Source of the DNA: Chloroflexota bacterium
GTDB lineage: Bacteria; Chloroflexota; Dehalococcoidia; Tepidiformales; Tepidiformaceae
Length of the DNA: 64,000 bases
NCBI GenBank assembly: GCA_026702615.1
Contig: JAPPBY010000033.1
Coordinates: 124,001 to 188,000 of the forward strand
Direction: 5' to 3'
In this document: in pieces, positions 3,711-54,520 of the stretch
How the letters are laid out: each line of letters begins with the position of its first letter
How positions within the stretch are numbered: position 1 is the stretch's first letter
Translations under genes and position numbers: made by a program
Notes under the pieces: generated by a model
Told to the model about the DNA's origin: nothing
The model's input: the letters and a program-made list of their open reading frames with translations, nothing else
Database searches by the model: none

Positions 3711-5858
3711 ATGGTCGAGACCAAGAAATCGTTTTGCCGCTTTTGCCATGCCTTCTGCGCCATTGAAGTGGACGTCGAAGACAACAAGGTCATCGAGGTT
3801 CGTGGCGACACGAGCGACCCGGTCTACGGCGGTTACACCTGCATCAAGGGCCGTCACCTGCCGGACCAGCACAACCACGCGGACCGGCTGCGCACGTCGC
3901 TGAAGCGCATGCCGGACGGCAGCTTCCAGCCGATCCCGAGCGAGCAGGCGCTCGACGAGATCGCCGAGAAGCTACGCTCCATCATCGACGAGCACGGGCC
4001 TCGCTCGGTCGCCAGCTACAACGGCACGTATGCCTTCTGCAACGCGATCACGCTCTCGGTGACGCGGGCCTGGCACGCGGGCATCGAGTCGCCCTCGTAC
4101 TACACGAGCGTGACCATCGACCAGCCAGCGAAGGCGATCGCCGCCTCGCGGGCGGGCACGTGGCTGGGCGGCAGCCAGAACTTCGAGACGGCGGACGTGG
4201 CGATGCTCATCGGGAACAACCCGGTCGTGTCGATGTTCGGGGGGATTCCCCCGTTCAACCCGTGGAAGCGCCTTCGGGACGCGCAGAAGCGCGGGCTGAA
4301 GCTGATCGTGATCGACCCGCGGGAAACGGACGTGGCCAAGCGGGCGGACCTCTACCTGCAGGTGAGGCCGGGCGAAGATCCGACGCTGCTGGCGGGGATC
4401 GTTCGCGTGATGTTCGAAGAGGGGCTCGTGGACGGCGACTTCCTTGCCGGGAACGTGGCCCACGTGGAGGACCTGCGGCAGGCGGTCGACAGCTTCACGC
4501 TGGACTACGTGGAGGAGCGCACGGGCGTGGCCGCCGCGCTGGTGGAGCGCGCGGCGCGCATGTTCGCGGAAGCGCAGCGCGGCGTCGCCTCGAGCGGCAC
4601 GGGCGCCAACATGTCGCCTCACCCGAACCTGACGGAGCACTTCGTGCAGACGCTGAATACGCTCTGCGGGCGGCACCTGCGCGAGGGCGAAGTGGTGCCG
4701 AACCCGGGCGTCATCGGGCCGGAGCGGCCGTGGGTGGCGCAGGCGAACCCGCCGAATCCCGCCTGGGGCAAGGGCGAGCCGAGCCGCGTCCGCGGTCTTG
4801 GCGAGGTGTTCGGCGAGATGCCGACGGCGGCCCTGAGCGACGAGATCATCACGCCGGGCGAGGGACGCGTGCGCGCGCTCATTAGCGTGGGCGGCAACCC
4901 CGTTGGGGCGTGGCCCGACCAGCTGAAGACGATCGAGGCGATGAAGCACCTCGACCTGAACGTGAGCATCGACATCAAGATGTCGCAGACGGCGAAGACG
5001 GCGGACTACGTGATCGCCCCGAAGCTCTCGCTGGAGCGGCCGGACCTGACGGTGCTGACCGACTCGTGGTACCCGGTGCCGTACGCGCACTACACGCCCG
5101 CGATGGTCGAGGCCGAGGACGACGTGATGGAGGAATGGGAGTTCTTCTGGGGCATCGCCCAGCGGCTGGGGACGGAGATCGAACTGGTCGGCGGCCCGAT
5201 GCCCATGGACGCGAAGCCGAGCACGGACGACGTGCTGGACCTGATCACGGCAAAGTCGCGCATCCCGCTGGACGAGGTTCGCGCCATAGACGGCGGGGGC
5301 ATCTTCGAGCGCGAGACGGTTCATGTCGGCGCGAAGGCGGCGGGGACGGACGCGCGTCTCGACGCGGCGCCGCCGGACCTGGTGGAGGAAATCGCCGAGG
5401 TGCGGGAGCAGCCAATCGTGGAAGGCGCAGGCTACCTGCCCGGCGAGGAGTTCTCGCACCGGCTGATCAGCCGCCGCATGCGCGAGTTCTACAACTCCTC
5501 CGGCCGCGACATCGCGGGGCTGACCGCGCGGGACGGCGGCACGAACCCGGCCTTCATGAATCCGCGTGACGGCGAGGCGTTCGGCATCGAAGACGGCGCG
5601 ATCATCGAGATCGAGTCGAGCCGAGCGACCATCCTGGGCGTGGCCGCGTTCGCCGAAGACGTGCCCTCGGGCGTCATCTCGATGGCCCACTCGTGGGGGG
5701 ACGTTCCGGAGACGGACCACGACGTTCGCAACATCGGCGGGAGCACGAACCGCCTCGTGAACAACGAGGAGGCGTACGACCCGATCACGGGCATGGCGCG
5801 GCAGAGCGCGATCCCGGTCAACATCCGGCCGGCGAAGGAGCCGGTGGGCGCCAGCTAG
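3711..5858 (+). CDS. Molybdopterin (bis-MGD) oxidoreductase catalytic subunit
   Basis: 715 residues. The N-terminus has the [4Fe-4S] motif of the DMSO-reductase family: C9-x2-C12-x3-C16 and C44 (CRFCHAFC, GYTCIKGR), with the Lys after the last Cys conserved. The middle carries cofactor-binding signatures (MLIGNNPVVSMFGG, LKLIVIDPRETDVAKRADLY). The C-terminal 120 residues are the molybdopterin dinucleotide-binding domain (EFSHRLISRRMREFYNSSG, FMNPRDGEAFGIEDGAIIEI). There is no Tat signal, so the enzyme is probably cytoplasmic. I cannot identify the Mo-ligand residue with confidence. No Fe-S or membrane subunit is adjacent, so the physiological acceptor is unknown. The nitroreductase 13 bases downstream is likely in the same operon. 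Confidence 0.87.
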   Translation: MVETKKSFCRFCHAFCAIEVDVEDNKVIEVRGDTSDPVYGGYTCIKGRHLPDQHNHADRLRTSLKRMPDGSFQPIPSEQALDEIAEKLRSIIDEHGPRSVASYNGTYAFCNAITLSVTRAWHAGIESPSYYTSVTIDQPAKAIAASRAGTWLGGSQNFETADVAMLIGNNPVVSMFGGIPPFNPWKRLRDAQKRGLKLIVIDPRETDVAKRADLYLQVRPGEDPTLLAGIVRVMFEEGLVDGDFLAGNVAHVEDLRQAVDSFTLDYVEERTGVAAALVERAARMFAEAQRGVASSGTGANMSPHPNLTEHFVQTLNTLCGRHLREGEVVPNPGVIGPERPWVAQANPPNPAWGKGEPSRVRGLGEVFGEMPTAALSDEIITPGEGRVRALISVGGNPVGAWPDQLKTIEAMKHLDLNVSIDIKMSQTAKTADYVIAPKLSLERPDLTVLTDSWYPVPYAHYTPAMVEAEDDVMEEWEFFWGIAQRLGTEIELVGGPMPMDAKPSTDDVLDLITAKSRIPLDEVRAIDGGGIFERETVHVGAKAAGTDARLDAAPPDLVEEIAEVREQPIVEGAGYLPGEEFSHRLISRRMREFYNSSGRDIAGLTARDGGTNPAFMNPRDGEAFGIEDGAIIEIESSRATILGVAAFAEDVPSGVISMAHSWGDVPETDHDVRNIGGSTNRLVNNEEAYDPITGMARQSAIPVNIRPAKEPVGAS

Positions 5859-5871
5859 GCGAGGAGGCACC

Positions 5872-6531
5872 ATGGCCGACGCGAAGTCCGGCACGAACGA
5901 TGTCTGGGAGGCGATCTACACGCAGCGGGCCATCCGCCGCTGGACGGATCAGGAAGTCCCGGACGAGCTCATCTGGAAGGTGATCGAGGCGGGCACGAAG
6001 GCCCCGTCGGGGAGCAACACGCAGCCCTGGCGCTTCCTCGTGATCAAAGACCAGGAGACGCGGGACGCGATCTCGGCGCAGCTGCGCAAGGGGCTCGAGA
6101 ACCCGGGTCTGCAGTCGATGATCGACAACGCGATCAAGTCCGGGACGAAGGGCGAGCGCCTGATGATGACGGGCGCGCGCGGGCTCTTCGAGAACCTGGC
6201 GTCAGCGCCGGTGTTCATCGTGCCGTGCCTCTACCAGGTGTCCTCGCCGACGCAGGATCCGACGACGCTGCTGGCGGGGAGCTCGATCTACCAGGCGGTG
6301 CAGAACATCATGCTGGCCGCACGGGCGCTGGGGCTCGGCACCGTGATGACGACGTTCCAGGGCGCCGTCGACGGCGTCCTGCGGGAGCGCTGCGGGATTC
6401 CCGACGAGGCGGTCCCGACGGCCATCATCCCGATGGGGTTCCCCGACGCGAACTTCGGTCCGACCAACCGCAAGCCGGTGGACGAAGTGACGAACTGGGA
6501 GCGCTGGGACGCCACGCAGGCGCGCGCCTAG
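5872..6531 (+). CDS. Nitroreductase-family FMN-dependent oxidoreductase
   Basis: 219 residues, normal for the family. The N-terminal FMN-binding arginines lie in YTQRAIRRWTDQEVP, followed by the phosphate-contact motif APSGSNTQPWRFLVIKD. Further on come SIYQAVQNIMLAARALGLGT and the C-terminal IIPMGFPDANFGPTNRKPVDE, both typical. The ATG has AGGAGGCACC upstream and lies 13 bases after the molybdopterin enzyme stop. These proteins reduce nitro, quinone or enone groups with NAD(P)H, usually as dimers; the actual substrate here cannot be read from the sequence. Confidence 0.88.
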   Translation: MADAKSGTNDVWEAIYTQRAIRRWTDQEVPDELIWKVIEAGTKAPSGSNTQPWRFLVIKDQETRDAISAQLRKGLENPGLQSMIDNAIKSGTKGERLMMTGARGLFENLASAPVFIVPCLYQVSSPTQDPTTLLAGSSIYQAVQNIMLAARALGLGTVMTTFQGAVDGVLRERCGIPDEAVPTAIIPMGFPDANFGPTNRKPVDEVTNWERWDATQARA

Positions 6532-6567: not shown

Positions 6568-7299
6568 ATGATCGCGCTCTACCGCTTCTTGCCGGAGTCG
6601 CGCGCGGCTGTGCGCGCGACGGTCGAGGGGGCGGGAGCGGCCACACCCGGCGACGGCGGGCTGGCGCTCGCCGAGGTGACGACAACGCTGGGCGCGTACG
6701 ACCTCGCGGTCGACCTGGGGGAGTCGGGGAGGGCCGGAGAGGCGGCGTCGCGGGCGCTGGGGGTGGCGGAGGCCGTGGTCGCGGGACAGGTGTGGCGCGA
6801 TGGGACGGGCTGGGAGGTCGGGCTGGAGGCGACGGGCATCGCGATTCCCGAGCCGGAGATCGAGGCGTTCGACGACATCGCGGCAGATGTGCCGTTCCTG
6901 CTGCTGCGGGCGATGGGGGGCTGGAACCTCGTGGCCTCGCCGGACCGGGAGACATGGCTGACGCTCTCGATGACGTTCCTGAACCGGCGCGCTTACCAAC
7001 GCTTCAACACCGAGGGGGCGTGGTTCAGTCCAGACGTCAACGAGCTGGCCTCGCTGGTGATGGGCACGCACAACACGCGCGATGTGGAGGGCACGTGCCT
7101 GACCTACGACATCCCGGGGCTCTCACTGGTGGACTGGGAGGACGAGGGGCAGGCCGCGCTGAGCGGCGGCGAGCCTGAGGCGTCGCGGAGCGCGATGCTG
7201 GCTGAGGAACTGCACTACGCGGCGCTGCTGAGGACGCCGGGCGACTCGCTGCGTGAGGCGCTCGCGCCGCTGGGGTCGGAGCTGTTCGTCGAGGGGTAG
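6568..7299 (+). CDS. Hypothetical protein
   Basis: 243 residues, 36 bases after the nitroreductase and probably co-transcribed. No signal peptide or membrane helix. The composition is acidic and rich in Ala, Gly and Leu. I recognise no catalytic motif or family. A WNLVASPDRETWLTLSMTFL stretch and a His-containing LVMGTHNTRDVEGTCLTYD stretch look structured. It ends 10 bases before the convergent DinB-like gene. Confidence 0.6.
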   Translation: MIALYRFLPESRAAVRATVEGAGAATPGDGGLALAEVTTTLGAYDLAVDLGESGRAGEAASRALGVAEAVVAGQVWRDGTGWEVGLEATGIAIPEPEIEAFDDIAADVPFLLLRAMGGWNLVASPDRETWLTLSMTFLNRRAYQRFNTEGAWFSPDVNELASLVMGTHNTRDVEGTCLTYDIPGLSLVDWEDEGQAALSGGEPEASRSAMLAEELHYAALLRTPGDSLREALAPLGSELFVEG

Positions 7300-7745: not shown

Positions 7746-8780
7746 TCAGCGCAGCGGCTCGATGACCATGACCGCCTGCCCGACGATCTCGCCGTTCTCC
7801 AGCATGGCCGTAGCCTCGTTCACCTGCTCGATGGTGCAGCGGAAGGTCACGATGGTGGGGATGGGGAGGCGGCCGTCCTCGATCCACTCGAGGAGGACGG
7901 GGATGTCCTCGTCGGGGCTGGGAGGGTCGGGGAGGGTGTAGCCGCCGGCGGCGACGATGGCGTCGAGATCGTCCTGGCGCTCATCGGTGCCGGGAAGTCC
8001 GACGACAAGGGCGCTGCCGCCATCGCGTACGGGCGTGCGGCCCGGGCGGGAGGCCGTCTCGAACTCATAGACGCAGTCAAAAAGGTGGTCGACCCCGCCG
8101 GGGACGAGCTCGGCGATGCGCTCGACGGCGGCGGCGCTGCTCAGGTTCAGGGACTCGGTGGCGCCGGCGGCGGTCGCGGCCTTGAGGCGCTCGTCGTCGC
8201 GGGCAACGGCGATGATCGTGCCGGCCCCGGCGGCGGCAGCCGCGGCGATGGTCGAGAGACCAACGCCCGCGCAGCCGAAGACGGCCACGCTGTCACCTTC
8301 CCCAACGCCCGCGGTGCGGACCGCGCTGACGGCGAGGAGCGTGGTGTTCCCGAGGACGGAGGCGCCCTCCTTGTCCATGAGGTTGGGGATGGGAACGACG
8401 AACTGCTCGTCGAGGATGAGGTTCGTTCCCCAGGCGCCGGCGGGAGCCACCTCGGTCTCCGTGCCATCGTCGAACTCGACGAGGGGGAGCTCGGGTTCAC
8501 GGCCCGGGTCCGCGCTCCAGGGCGTTATCAGGACAACGTCGCCAACCTTGCAGCGGCTGACCTCGCTGCCGACCTCAAGGACGCGGGCGGTGCCCTCCCG
8601 GCCGGGGATGAGGGGAAGGGGCTGGGGCTCCTCGACCTGCTGCAGCTGCCCGTGCTCAATGCCGGCGGCGTAGATCTCGAGGACGGCCTGGTGCGGTCCG
8701 GGGTCGGGGAGTTCCAGTTCCTGGATGGCACAGACTCCGAAGTCGCCCTCGAGGACGACGACGCGGGCGGTTGTTGGCAT
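7746..8780 (-). CDS. MDR-superfamily oxidoreductase lacking zinc ligands
   Basis: 344 residues with the two-domain medium-chain dehydrogenase layout: GroES-like N-terminal domain, then a Rossmann domain with VAVFGCAGVGLSTIAAAAAA. In zinc alcohol dehydrogenases the segment after the first strands reads CGxCxTDxH and later GHE. Here it reads AAGIEHGQLQQ and IPGREGTARV, so the catalytic Cys and His are gone, and no structural-zinc Cys cluster is present. A quinone-oxidoreductase-like, zinc-free NAD(P)H enzyme is the best reading. It lies 15 bases downstream of the oxygenase-like gene, so joint action on one substrate is plausible (inference). Confidence 0.82.
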   Translation of the reverse strand: MPTTARVVVLEGDFGVCAIQELELPDPGPHQAVLEIYAAGIEHGQLQQVEEPQPLPLIPGREGTARVLEVGSEVSRCKVGDVVLITPWSADPGREPELPLVEFDDGTETEVAPAGAWGTNLILDEQFVVPIPNLMDKEGASVLGNTTLLAVSAVRTAGVGEGDSVAVFGCAGVGLSTIAAAAAAGAGTIIAVARDDERLKAATAAGATESLNLSSAAAVERIAELVPGGVDHLFDCVYEFETASRPGRTPVRDGGSALVVGLPGTDERQDDLDAIVAAGGYTLPDPPSPDEDIPVLLEWIEDGRLPIPTIVTFRCTIEQVNEATAMLENGEIVGQAVMVIEPLR

Positions 8781-8795
8781 AGGGCGCGATAACTC

Positions 8796-10136
8796 CTAGC
8801 GCTCGACGTAGGGCGCGAGCAGTTGGGGCACGCGCAGGTCTTCGGGGATGCGCCCGGGCCCGATCATGCGGTCGAGCTGCTCGGCGCAGTTCCAGATGCG
8901 CCGCTCCTGGTAGCTGACGGGCATGCCGGTGAGGCCGGGCGAGTTGAGCGACTTCTGCATGGGCGCCATGTTGCGCGTGTCCTCTTCCATGACGACGTCG
9001 AACCCATCGAGGCGGTTCTGCCAGACCTCGGAGGAGGCGGGGGAGGGGCCGTCGCCCCAGTCGACACAGAACGTGATCCACTCGAAGCGGGTCGTGCCCA
9101 CATCGAGGGGCCAGGCGAGGAGGAAGGGCATGCCCGTGGCGCTCACGGGCGTGACGAGGTTGGGAAAGGCGCTGAAGGCGGTGCTGGTGCAACGCGTCAT
9201 GCCGTTGACGGTCTTGATCTCGGCCATGCCGTCGTGCAGGGCGCCGAAGGCCTGTCGGTCGAGGTCGGTGCGCCAGTCGAGCTGGTGGTCCATGCCGGTC
9301 ATCTCGGCGGCGCGCTTGGAGAGGGGCGTGATCATGCGGGAGTGGCCGTTGGGCAGGACGCCCATCGTGGCGCCGCGCTGGTCGAGCCCGGAGACGCCCG
9401 CCTTCTGGTGAATGTGCTTGAAGTGATAGACCTCCTGGAAGGCCTCGACGGTGACCTTCCAGTTGCAGGGGATGATGGTCCAGCGCTTGTCGATCATGCG
9501 GAGCGTGGCGCCCTGGAACATCGACATCTGCTCGGGGAGGGGGTGGAGCCAGTCGAGGAGGGGTTCGGCGTCCGGGTCCTGGTTGATGAAGACCCAGCCA
9601 TCCCACGTCTCGCAGCGGAGCTCACGAATGCGGTGTTTCTCCCTGGGAATTCCGGCCTTGTCGCCCACGAACTTCCCGGTGGTGAAGTCGTAGAGGTGCC
9701 CCTCGGAGGAGCGGAAGACGCCCTCAGGGAGCTTCCGGCGGGGAAACTCCTGCTGGAACTGGAGGTTGTTCCCGGCGGAGTCGAACTCCTTCCAGTGGAA
9801 GAGGTCGCTGTCGTCGGGGACGTCGAAGATGGGCGAGCCGTCTACGGAGGCGTTCTCGAAGGCGTGGATGGCCAGGTCCTCGCCCCGGACGAGGATGACC
9901 TGGATGCCGAGGTGGTCCCAGACCTGGTAGGAGCCGGGCTCGGGAAGCTCCTCCTCGCGAGTGGCGTAGAGCCAGACGGTGGGCCAGAAGTGCTTCATCT
10001 CGAGCTCGAAGAACTCCTGGCTGCGGTAGCGGCCAGCGGGAATGTCGGGGAACCTGGGGAAGCCCTCGGGCGGCCCCTCACGCGAGAACTCGTACCGGAT
10101 TTCCTGCTTCAGCTGCTCGACGAGGGCTTCTTTCAC
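8796..10136 (-). CDS. Ring-hydroxylating oxygenase alpha-subunit homologue with no Rieske cluster ligands
   Basis: 446 residues from a GTG at 10136 with GGAGG 5 bases upstream; its paralogue starts at the same point. The overall pattern is that of aromatic ring-hydroxylating dioxygenase alpha subunits: an N-terminal Rieske-like fold, then NWKVTVEAFQEVYHFKHIHQ with the iron ligands H238 and H243, and an EED motif near the C-terminus that fits the third ligand. The Rieske motifs CxH and CxxH are absent. At the first site NASVDG stands where NxCxHxG is expected (S97, D99); at the second FRSSEGH stands for FRCPxHG (S143, G146). No other CxH exists in the protein. The spacing between the two sites is about 43 residues, longer than usual. 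It could be an iron enzyme fed by another electron donor, or a non-catalytic binding protein. Confidence 0.82.
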   Translation of the reverse strand: MKEALVEQLKQEIRYEFSREGPPEGFPRFPDIPAGRYRSQEFFELEMKHFWPTVWLYATREEELPEPGSYQVWDHLGIQVILVRGEDLAIHAFENASVDGSPIFDVPDDSDLFHWKEFDSAGNNLQFQQEFPRRKLPEGVFRSSEGHLYDFTTGKFVGDKAGIPREKHRIRELRCETWDGWVFINQDPDAEPLLDWLHPLPEQMSMFQGATLRMIDKRWTIIPCNWKVTVEAFQEVYHFKHIHQKAGVSGLDQRGATMGVLPNGHSRMITPLSKRAAEMTGMDHQLDWRTDLDRQAFGALHDGMAEIKTVNGMTRCTSTAFSAFPNLVTPVSATGMPFLLAWPLDVGTTRFEWITFCVDWGDGPSPASSEVWQNRLDGFDVVMEEDTRNMAPMQKSLNSPGLTGMPVSYQERRIWNCAEQLDRMIGPGRIPEDLRVPQLLAPYVER

Positions 10137-10231: not shown

Positions 10232-10570
10232 ATGATTCGCCACATCGTCACGATCACGCTGCGGGAAGACGCCTCGACCGAGGACCTGGAGACCTTCTTC
10301 GAGCGACTGGGGCCGATCAGCGAGCACCCGAAGGCAATCGACTACTACTGCGGCTGGAACTTCCAGGACCTCGGCGATCCGTGCGACATCGGCATCTCGT
10401 GCTCGTTCGAGAACCACGCCGACTTCGAGGAGTACATGGCCTCCCCGCACCACGGTCCGCCGGGGGAGATCCTGCGGCGCATCTCGGACCACTGGAGCGT
10501 TATCGACTACGTCGAGGGGTCGCCCCAGGACGCGAAAGCGGCGACGCGGTCGGAGCGGGAGGGGGCATGA
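10232..10570 (+). CDS. Dabb (stress-responsive A/B barrel) domain protein
   Basis: 112 residues. MIRHIVTITLREDASTEDLE and the later DIGISCSFENHADFEEYMAS plus HHGPPGEILRRIS match the ferredoxin-like dimeric alpha/beta barrel (Dabb/EthD-like) pattern, including the usual final His-containing segment. A good GGGGAG lies 8 bases before the ATG. Members bind small hydrophobic molecules or act as cyclases and decarboxylases; the role here is open. The stop overlaps the pdxA start (ATGA), so the two are translationally coupled. Confidence 0.75.
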   Translation: MIRHIVTITLREDASTEDLETFFERLGPISEHPKAIDYYCGWNFQDLGDPCDIGISCSFENHADFEEYMASPHHGPPGEILRRISDHWSVIDYVEGSPQDAKAATRSEREGA

Positions 10571-52757: not shown

Positions 52758-53171
52758 ATGGGCGCCTCTGAGGTATCGACGGGAGCGGCGCGGCTGACGG
52801 CCGCCTACCCGCAGCTGTTCACGGGCAGCATGGAGCGTGCGGCCGAGTTCTACCGCGAGCAACTGGGTTTCGAGGTTCGCTTCCTGTTCGGCGACCCGCC
52901 CGTGTACGCACAGTTCTCGCGGGACGCAGTGCGGCTGAACATGCGCCTCGTCCAGGCTCCCGTGCTCGACCGCGAGGCGGCCGAGCGAGGCGAGCTGCTG
53001 GCCGCCTACCTGGAGGTCGACGATGTCGAGGGGCTGTACCGCGAGTACGCCGGCCGCGACGTCGACTTCCGCCGACCGCTTGAGACGAAGCCGTGGGGAC
53101 TCACCGGCTTCATCGTCCGGGACCCGGACGGAAACCTGCTCAACTTCTCCGAACCGGCGGGCCCGGCCTAG
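52758..53171 (+). CDS. VOC-superfamily (glyoxalase/bleomycin-resistance-like) protein
   Basis: 137 residues from the ATG at 52758. PQLFTGSMERAAEFYREQLG and FEVRFLFGDPPVYAQFSRDA, then AAYLEVDDVEGLYREYAG and TGFIVRDPDGNLLNF, are the paired beta-alpha-beta modules of the VOC fold. A metal-binding Glu fits AYLEVDD. Substrate cannot be told. Its stop overlaps the convergent oxygenase-like gene by 4 bases. Confidence 0.85.
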   Translation: MGASEVSTGAARLTAAYPQLFTGSMERAAEFYREQLGFEVRFLFGDPPVYAQFSRDAVRLNMRLVQAPVLDREAAERGELLAAYLEVDDVEGLYREYAGRDVDFRRPLETKPWGLTGFIVRDPDGNLLNFSEPAGPA

Positions 53172-54520
53172 CGCTCAAGGTAGGGCTCGAGGAGCTGCGG
53201 CACGCGCAGGTGCTCGGGGATGCGCTCGGGGCCGATCGCGCGGTCGAGGGTTTCGGCGCAGTGCCAGATGCGACGCTCCTGGTAGCTGACGGGGATACCG
53301 ATGAGGCCCGGAGAGTCGAGCGACTTCTGCATGGGCGTCATGTTGCGGGTGTCCTCCTCCATCACGACCGTGCGCTGGTGGAGGCGGTCGGCGCGCATCT
53401 GGACGATGGCGGGGTCGTCGTCGTCGCCCCAGTCGTTCATGAAGGTGACCCACTCGAAAAGCGTGTGGCCGATATCGATGGGCCAGCAGAGGAGGAAGGG
53501 CATACCCGTCGTGCCCACGGGGGTGATGAGGTTGGGGAAGATGCTGAAGGCGGTGCTGGTGCAGCTGACCATGGGGACGACGGTGTCGATCTCGCGAATG
53601 GGACCCATATCGCCGAAGCCACCCATCATGCCCCCGGGCTTCCAGTCGAGGGCGTCCTCCATTCCGGAAGCGGCAGCGGCGCGCTTGGTGATGGGGGTGA
53701 TCATGCGCGAGTGACCGTGGGGGAAGAGCCCCATGGTGGCGCCCCGCTGGTCGAGCATGGTGACGCCTTCCTTCTGGTGGATGTGCTTGAAGTGGTAGAC
53801 CTCCTGGAAGGCTTCGACCGTGACCTTCCAGTTGCAGCTGATGACCAGCGAGTCTTTCTCGAAGAGGCGGAGATTCTCTCCCTGGAACTGGGCCATCTGG
53901 CGGGCGATGGGGCCGAGCCACTCGATGAGGGGCATGGCGTCGGGGTCCTGGTTCACGAAGACCCAGCCGTCCCAGACCTCGCAGCGGTACTCGGTGAGGC
54001 TGCGGTCCTCGTAGGGGATGGCGTCGAGCTGTTCGCCGAAGGGCACGGCGACGAGGTGGCCGTTCGTGTCGTAGGCCCAGCCGCGGCGCTGGCAGCGGAG
54101 GACGCCATCGGGGAGGGTGCGGCGGGGGAAGTGCTGCTGGCGGAAGAGCGTCCCCGGAGCGTCGAACTCGACCTCGGTCCGGAGATCGCTATCGTCATGC
54201 CAGGGCACGAGGGGGGCGCTGTTGGGGCTCTCGTTGCGGAAGGCGCGGATGCGCATGTCCGCGTCGCGGACGAGGACGACGGGCGTATCGCGAAGCGACT
54301 CCCAGACCCAGTAGCTGCCGACTTCGGGCAGGTCCTCCTGGCGTCCGGCAAAGAGCCAGGTTCGGGGCCAGTGGTACTTCTGCTCAAGCTCGAAGAAGGC
54401 GGGGTCGGTATAGCGGCCGCCGGGGATGTCGGGGAACTTGGGGAAACCCTCTGGGGGACCCTCGCGGGAGAACTCGTAGCGGATCTCGTTCTTCAGCTGC
54501 TCGATGAGCGCGTCTTCCAT
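53168..54520 (-). CDS. Ring-hydroxylating oxygenase alpha-subunit homologue with degenerate Rieske site (paralogue 2)
   Basis: 450 residues, clearly paralogous to the protein at 8796 over the whole length (LIEQLKNEIRYEFSREGPPE at the N-terminus). The first Rieske motif is NESPNS instead of NxCxHxG (S98, N100). The second is LRCQRRGW, keeping C143 but with Arg at the His position (R146). Three of four [2Fe-2S] ligands are therefore missing. The mononuclear-iron His pair is intact in VYHFKHIHQ, and EEDTRNMTPMQKSL carries the probable Asp. GGAGG 8 bases upstream of the ATG. Stands alone between a VOC gene and an ArsC-like gene. Confidence 0.82.
   Translation of the reverse strand: MEDALIEQLKNEIRYEFSREGPPEGFPKFPDIPGGRYTDPAFFELEQKYHWPRTWLFAGRQEDLPEVGSYWVWESLRDTPVVLVRDADMRIRAFRNESPNSAPLVPWHDDSDLRTEVEFDAPGTLFRQQHFPRRTLPDGVLRCQRRGWAYDTNGHLVAVPFGEQLDAIPYEDRSLTEYRCEVWDGWVFVNQDPDAMPLIEWLGPIARQMAQFQGENLRLFEKDSLVISCNWKVTVEAFQEVYHFKHIHQKEGVTMLDQRGATMGLFPHGHSRMITPITKRAAAASGMEDALDWKPGGMMGGFGDMGPIREIDTVVPMVSCTSTAFSIFPNLITPVGTTGMPFLLCWPIDIGHTLFEWVTFMNDWGDDDDPAIVQMRADRLHQRTVVMEEDTRNMTPMQKSLDSPGLIGIPVSYQERRIWHCAETLDRAIGPERIPEHLRVPQLLEPYLER

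Follow-up and report, generated by a model that had tools for sequence, protein, structure and literature searches.

One-chain Rieske oxygenases already pass electrons between neighboring subunits, so splitting the two metal centers over two chains needs no new chemistry. A division of this kind was reportedly found by Kunugi et al. 2013 in Micromonas CAO, with the iron on one chain and the Rieske cluster on the other. This prasinophyte chlorophyllide a oxygenase consists of two polypeptide chains (PMC9615114). In the caffeine N7-demethylase NdmCDE of Pseudomonas putida CBB5, the catalytic subunit NdmC has no Rieske cluster and is supplied with one by NdmD (PMC4408171), in which the Rieske domain is fused to a reductase; the GST-like protein NdmE is also needed. 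Enzymes of the CntA/GbcA type, unlike the protein described here, carry both iron centers on one chain. In CntA the cluster is 44 A from the iron of its own chain but about 12 A from that of a neighboring chain, to which it is bridged by E205, mutants of which are inactive (PMC7948474). Beyond NdmC, we found nothing relevant in the literature on Rieske-less or split bacterial oxygenases. Large dioxygenase expansions have been described in SAR202 Chloroflexota, in passages that make no mention of cluster-less forms (PMC6946804).

We analyzed a stretch of 64,000 nucleotides from a Chloroflexota genome, which we refer to as the window, and focused on a gene that we call A (positions 8796-10136, minus strand, GTG start, 446 aa). 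Based on the evidence below, we consider it very likely that A provides the catalytic subunit in a split Rieske oxygenase, its electrons coming from a second protein, C, encoded elsewhere in the same genome. The sole Pfam match in A is PF00848 (Ring_hydroxyl_A), which covers residues 218-425 (E 3.8e-19) and scores 69.9 bits, above the curated cut-off of 24.9, and Pfam gave no match to the Rieske domain PF00355. When A was searched against PDB sequences only weak matches were returned, the best of them to CntA, and these flank the cluster region without any running across it. The AlphaFold model of A (mean pLDDT 69) nonetheless predicts that the alpha-subunit fold is kept whole, former Rieske domain included, because it can be superposed on CntA (6y9d) from residue 28 to residue 427 (Z 26.6, rmsd 3.2, with 304 aligned residues and 20% identity); across CntA and other structures, Z ranges from 22 to 27 and the matched residues from 28 to 438.

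Within this fold, the degenerate Rieske domain of A spans residues 79-160 (9657-9902, minus strand), and alignment with 44 intact relatives, each of which has CHCH at all four cluster positions, places S97, D99, S143 and E145 at those positions. The initial annotation had claimed that the Rieske cluster was lost from A while the fold and the mononuclear site were kept, and both claims hold: all four ligand positions are substituted and PF00355 is missing, whereas H238 and H243 are present together with D386 and E235, and the fold matches that of CntA. Its assignments of S97, D99 and S143 agree with ours, but the fourth position is E145, after a one-residue deletion, rather than G146. The bridging glutamate E235 and the two iron-ligand histidines H238 and H243 are encoded at 9408-9434, and the third ligand of the mononuclear iron, D386, at 8979-8981 (both minus strand). 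This E-x2-H-x4-H...D layout with its glutamate bridge is that of CntA/GbcA-type enzymes, CntA being the closest solved fold to A, and E235 is the equivalent of CntA E205.

A second Rieske-less paralog, B (53168-54520, minus strand, 450 aa), is 62% identical to A, has S/N/C/R at the cluster positions and keeps E-HHD. According to a hand count from the match table, the window's genome encodes 16 PF00848 proteins and one borderline partial match, the latter being C. In fourteen of the 16 full proteins the frame also encodes a Rieske domain, and the two exceptions are A and B. That A and B might complete one another can be ruled out since the cluster is missing from both. B was not detected in genomes G005 and G016, although both have A.

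The loss of cluster ligands extends to every full-length relative of A and B that we sampled, namely nine A orthologs in the window's genus (A included), one from another genus (L017, in G016), and eight B orthologs. Pfam finds only PF00848 in A, B and L017. The histidine of CxxH is gone in 18/18 rows and the full four-ligand set is present in none, whereas E-H-H-D is intact in all 18 as well as in the 44 one-chain relatives. The orthologs of A hold zero to three cluster ligands, with the states CHCE (four), CD-E (one) and SD-E (four, A among them); L017 has TSDT and has thus lost all four ligands in another way than A, and the B orthologs have SNCR in 8/8. The identical loss of all four ligands is found in four of the ten A rows. 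All 18 also share an extra segment of about 26 added residues, which in A separates the lost ligand motifs from each other (residues ~105-138; 9723-9824, minus strand), so that the motifs are 42-46 residues apart rather than 16-19 as in intact relatives. Samples of 393 members of the class and 400 members of the phylum yielded no additional full-length member, and a third genus (G018) has A as a fragment of 83 residues, lying at the end of a contig. The initial annotation had also raised the prospect of displaced but working ligands. We reject it for A, in which the alignment leaves no cysteine at either motif and the extra segment has no Cys or His conserved in all members. The four CHC-E orthologs, however, might still bind an altered cluster, and their motifs, CVH...CPEEGH, could in principle use the histidine two residues on.

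A Rieske search of four relatives revealed the candidate partner, in the form of a Rieske domain 2.4 kb from A in G016. This C (L017:9224-10009, 261 aa, P0003) has a complete cluster motif in the style of those in the Actinomycetota enzymes (FYNSCRHRGAP...RALRCQYHSWTYDT), followed by NWKLMQETLTDNFASTNDE where iron histidines would be expected. In the window's genome C lies outside the window, on contig C18 of G000 at 82325-83551 (= L204:6326-7552). We identified 11 C proteins. The Rieske motif CRHR...CQYHSW is complete in 11/11, as are the cluster ligands C-H-C-H, while the iron histidines are absent from all 11 and 0/33 positions of the iron triad are kept. PF00355 scores 52-68 bits in these proteins, PF00848 is absent or at most a borderline fragment, and Pfam detects no reductase domain. 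One other frame that appeared to be Rieske-only (330 aa, G008 contig C14) was discarded, being a gene that runs off its contig end and is only 26% like C.

The selective constraints on the two kinds of protein are mirrored: the catalytic part is the tightest in A, the extra segment aside, and the Rieske part is the tightest in C. Pooled dN/dS is 0.106 for A and 0.106 for B. By part, dN/dS in A is 0.154 for the former Rieske core, 0.084-0.091 for the catalytic part and 0.064 for the extra segment, and in B it is 0.158 for the Rieske core and 0.085-0.096 for the catalytic part; the former Rieske core is thus the laxest part of both proteins, though still constrained. In C, the Rieske core has a dN/dS of 0.071 and the dead catalytic part one of 0.347. 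That A is a pseudogene or an assembly error is ruled out by 18 relatives in independent assemblies with a dN/dS of about 0.1, and because these assemblies share the ligand loss under strong purifying selection, the loss goes beyond chance or faulty assembly. The extra segment is the most conserved part of A even though it lies inside the domain without a cluster, and it may fill the cluster site or make a new interface.

C also follows A across genomes. Among 60 relatives, comprising 11 genomes with A (three genera) and 49 others (39 genera), C is present in all 11 of the former (nine of the window's genus, G016 and G018), with one C per genome, and a C with these features is found in 0/49 of the genomes without A. 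Fisher tests of this co-occurrence give 3e-12 by genome and 9e-5 by genus (3/3 vs 0/39), values that are not corrected for kinship and count close species, mostly from metagenome assemblies, so that the pairs are not independent events. Because all 11 genomes belong to one family, the co-occurrence is partly a matter of shared descent. Both genes are present in the single-contig chromosome of G005 (L015).

Further evidence comes from the genomic neighborhood. In the window's genus and in G016, A and the gene of an MDR-type dehydrogenase converge with a row of three genes. In the window, 15 bp separate A from the MDR gene that follows it on the same strand (7746-8780, minus strand), and the convergent genes, all on the plus strand, encode a molybdopterin oxidoreductase of the DMSO-reductase type (3711-5858) and a nitroreductase-family flavoprotein (5872-6531, PF00881), both placed in the block by synteny, and p6568 (6568-7299, 243 aa), a protein of no known family and a possible third component. 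In G016, C itself is part of this operon, placed between the nitroreductase gene and p6568 with intergenic gaps that range from a few bases to about 20, and A is about 2 kb away. In G018, a short contig carries C, p6568 and A in that order and in one direction, with only 83 residues of A. The linkage of A and C thus rests on two genera other than the window's own, in which C lies away from A on the chromosome (840 kb apart in closed G005). There C is near MTHFR-like and folylpolyglutamate-synthase-like genes, which, judging by inspection of protein starts, are near A in G016, and this suggests that the A-C locus broke up in the window's genus. Apart from C, the conserved block contains no Rieske or reductase gene and no NdmD-like reductase, and Pfam detects no GST-like protein within it.

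We favor the following scenario. The ancestor would have been an ordinary one-chain enzyme of the type still present in Actinomycetota relatives. A and B would have kept the mononuclear 2-His-1-Asp iron and the bridging glutamate and lost the Rieske cluster, and C would have kept the cluster and lost the mononuclear site. C would receive electrons from a reductase or ferredoxin, and these would pass from its cluster across the subunit interface, close to A's E235, to the mononuclear iron of A, and probably to that of B as well, where O2 and substrate would react. By analogy, contact between A and C would rebuild the electron path of CntA, and A presumably makes use of it. We infer the A-C complex, the flow of electrons from C to A, the sharing of C with B and oxygenation as the reaction from features read in the sequences: complementary loss, mirrored selection, exact co-occurrence, linkage in two genera and membership in the same subfamily. 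Because there is one C per genome and one or two catalytic genes, the gene counts suggest that C serves both A and B. In a ring of three subunits, C could donate productively to A at one contact at most, and the stoichiometry may therefore depart from that of known alpha-3 enzymes.

This arrangement resembles Micromonas CAO in that an iron-only chain and a Rieske-only chain, both of one oxygenase family, go together, here as genes for A/B and C in the same genome in 11/11 cases. It differs in being bacterial and of a different subfamily, whereas Micromonas CAO is a eukaryotic plastid enzyme acting on chlorophyllide, and chlorophyllide a is not expected in A's lineage. A further difference is that up to two catalytic paralogs go with each Rieske subunit, and that a third protein may be involved. 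A is like NdmC in being a catalytic subunit without a cluster, the cluster being on another protein, but C, unlike NdmD, is a relative of oxygenase alpha subunits with a dead catalytic domain and has no reductase part. What would be new here is a bacterial system built of complementary decayed paralogs, the two-chain principle being known already.

Other explanations must be weighed against this split enzyme. In extradiol and other 2-His-1-carboxylate dioxygenases the electrons come from the substrate, and A and B could likewise be self-sufficient mononuclear iron enzymes, with substrate-supplied electrons or a non-redox reaction, while C serves something else. The retention of all iron ligands under strong purifying selection after loss of the cluster fits such enzymes, as does the conserved extra segment in the part that lost it. 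Under this explanation, however, the bridging glutamate would not be expected to be invariant, since its known job is to contact the Rieske histidine of a neighbor (PMC7948474), nor would one expect C, a dead enzyme with a perfect cluster site, to co-occur exactly with A and to be linked to it in two genera, and we regard self-sufficiency as unlikely. The new non-redox chemistry that the initial annotation offered as one option is neither needed nor supported, given that no A/B row has lost the bridging glutamate or any iron ligand. Still less is to be said for A and B as iron-free pseudoenzymes that act structurally or in regulation: half of the redox machinery is indeed missing from the chain, but iron ligands that are invariant in 18/18 and a catalytic part that is the most constrained, A's extra segment aside, make this very improbable.

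A different possibility is that the electrons come from a general donor, either a free-standing Rieske ferredoxin or, as in NdmCDE, a Rieske domain fused to a reductase, with C as a side branch. NdmC does use the Rieske domain of NdmD (PMC4408171), and there are other Rieske proteins in the genome. Given that the conserved block holds no Rieske or reductase gene except C, and that the other small Rieske proteins either show no linkage to A or have an intact oxygenase beside them, we think a general donor improbable. The initial annotation had suggested that another donor acts on A and had named the adjacent MDR protein. We agree with the former, C being the most likely donor, but not with the latter. 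In both genera with a readable neighborhood the MDR gene is linked to A, and in the window it lies 15 bp downstream on A's strand. Its product is an NAD(P)-binding dehydrogenase-type protein akin to zinc alcohol dehydrogenases (mycothiol-dependent formaldehyde dehydrogenase, 1p0c). MDR proteins move hydride from NAD(P)H to substrate, and we know of no established way for a hydride donor to feed single electrons to a mononuclear iron. As Pfam detects no flavin or iron-sulfur domain in this hydride-transfer protein and its zinc ligands are replaced, direct reduction of A by MDR is hardly credible.

The phylogenetic analysis bears on how the split enzyme may have arisen. A, B and L017 form one clade (support 100/100), which is the clade of common losses that the initial annotation had suggested looking for. 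Its sister group (100/99) consists of intact Actinomycetota proteins, with ~44-47% identity to A in the closest of them; these intact relatives (L024, L110-L115) have the cluster and iron ligands on one chain and no extra segment. Three of them, L112, L024 and L111, are the best intact matches shared by A/B and most C. C belongs to the subfamily that also contains A, B, the intact Actinomycetota proteins and sphingomonad enzymes (100/99 vs distant oxygenases). A tree that groups A, B and C is not rejected (AU p 0.31) and C may be the direct duplicate of A/B, although the tree does not favor any one exact branch for it. The simplest reading of these sequences would be that an intact enzyme was duplicated and then underwent complementary loss, living relatives retaining intermediates with three, two, one and no ligands left; the alternative is that C was acquired separately.

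Rieske oxygenase chains carry two centers that never serve each other directly, and here evolution seems to have parted them. The apparently broken gene in the window is probably half of a working pair in a marine Chloroflexota lineage, and other "degenerate" oxygenase genes of Chloroflexota may likewise be halves of working enzymes, which annotation should not discard. If confirmed, the pair would form a naturally mixed ring with every electron path defined, allowing tests of half-site reactivity and stoichiometry that homotrimers hide. We give about even chances to the fuller proposal that A and B are interchangeable catalytic subunits served by a single Rieske-only C, perhaps together with p6568 as a third subunit from a new family, and that this is the first bacterial Rieske oxygenase split by duplication and complementary decay. 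Were it true, one electron-delivery chain would feed enzymes differing in substrate range.

Several observations concern the neighboring genes. In every MDR ortholog read, all three catalytic zinc ligands are replaced (Cys by E/G/Q, the His of GHE by R/S, and Cys by N/D/Q) and the structural zinc lobe is missing; given the cluster loss in A, two adjoining genes are thus each without a metal site. p6568 has no relative in Pfam, NCBIfam or PDB, the last searched by profile, adjoins C in two genera and is confined, among the genomes searched, to those with A and C. Its invariant residues include G117-G118, H168 and C177, and it may be an adaptor. The DMSO-reductase-type enzyme is about as conserved across genera (70%) as A, and it may belong to A's pathway. 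On the other side of A, a Dabb-domain protein (10232-10570, plus strand, PF07876) is divergent in orientation from A and is conserved in the genus only.

Two further observations concern relatives of A. L011 pairs with L013 in the whole-protein tree, yet it has A's ligand state (SVD/SS-EG) whereas L013 has CCD/CC-EG, for which reversal, parallel loss or recombination inside the Rieske part are possible readings. In Croceicoccus sediminis (L026, 3975-5592), an intact relative of A adjoins, by inspection, a cytochrome P450-like gene and a small ferredoxin-like gene, neighbors that are a possible clue to the electron donors of the subfamily.
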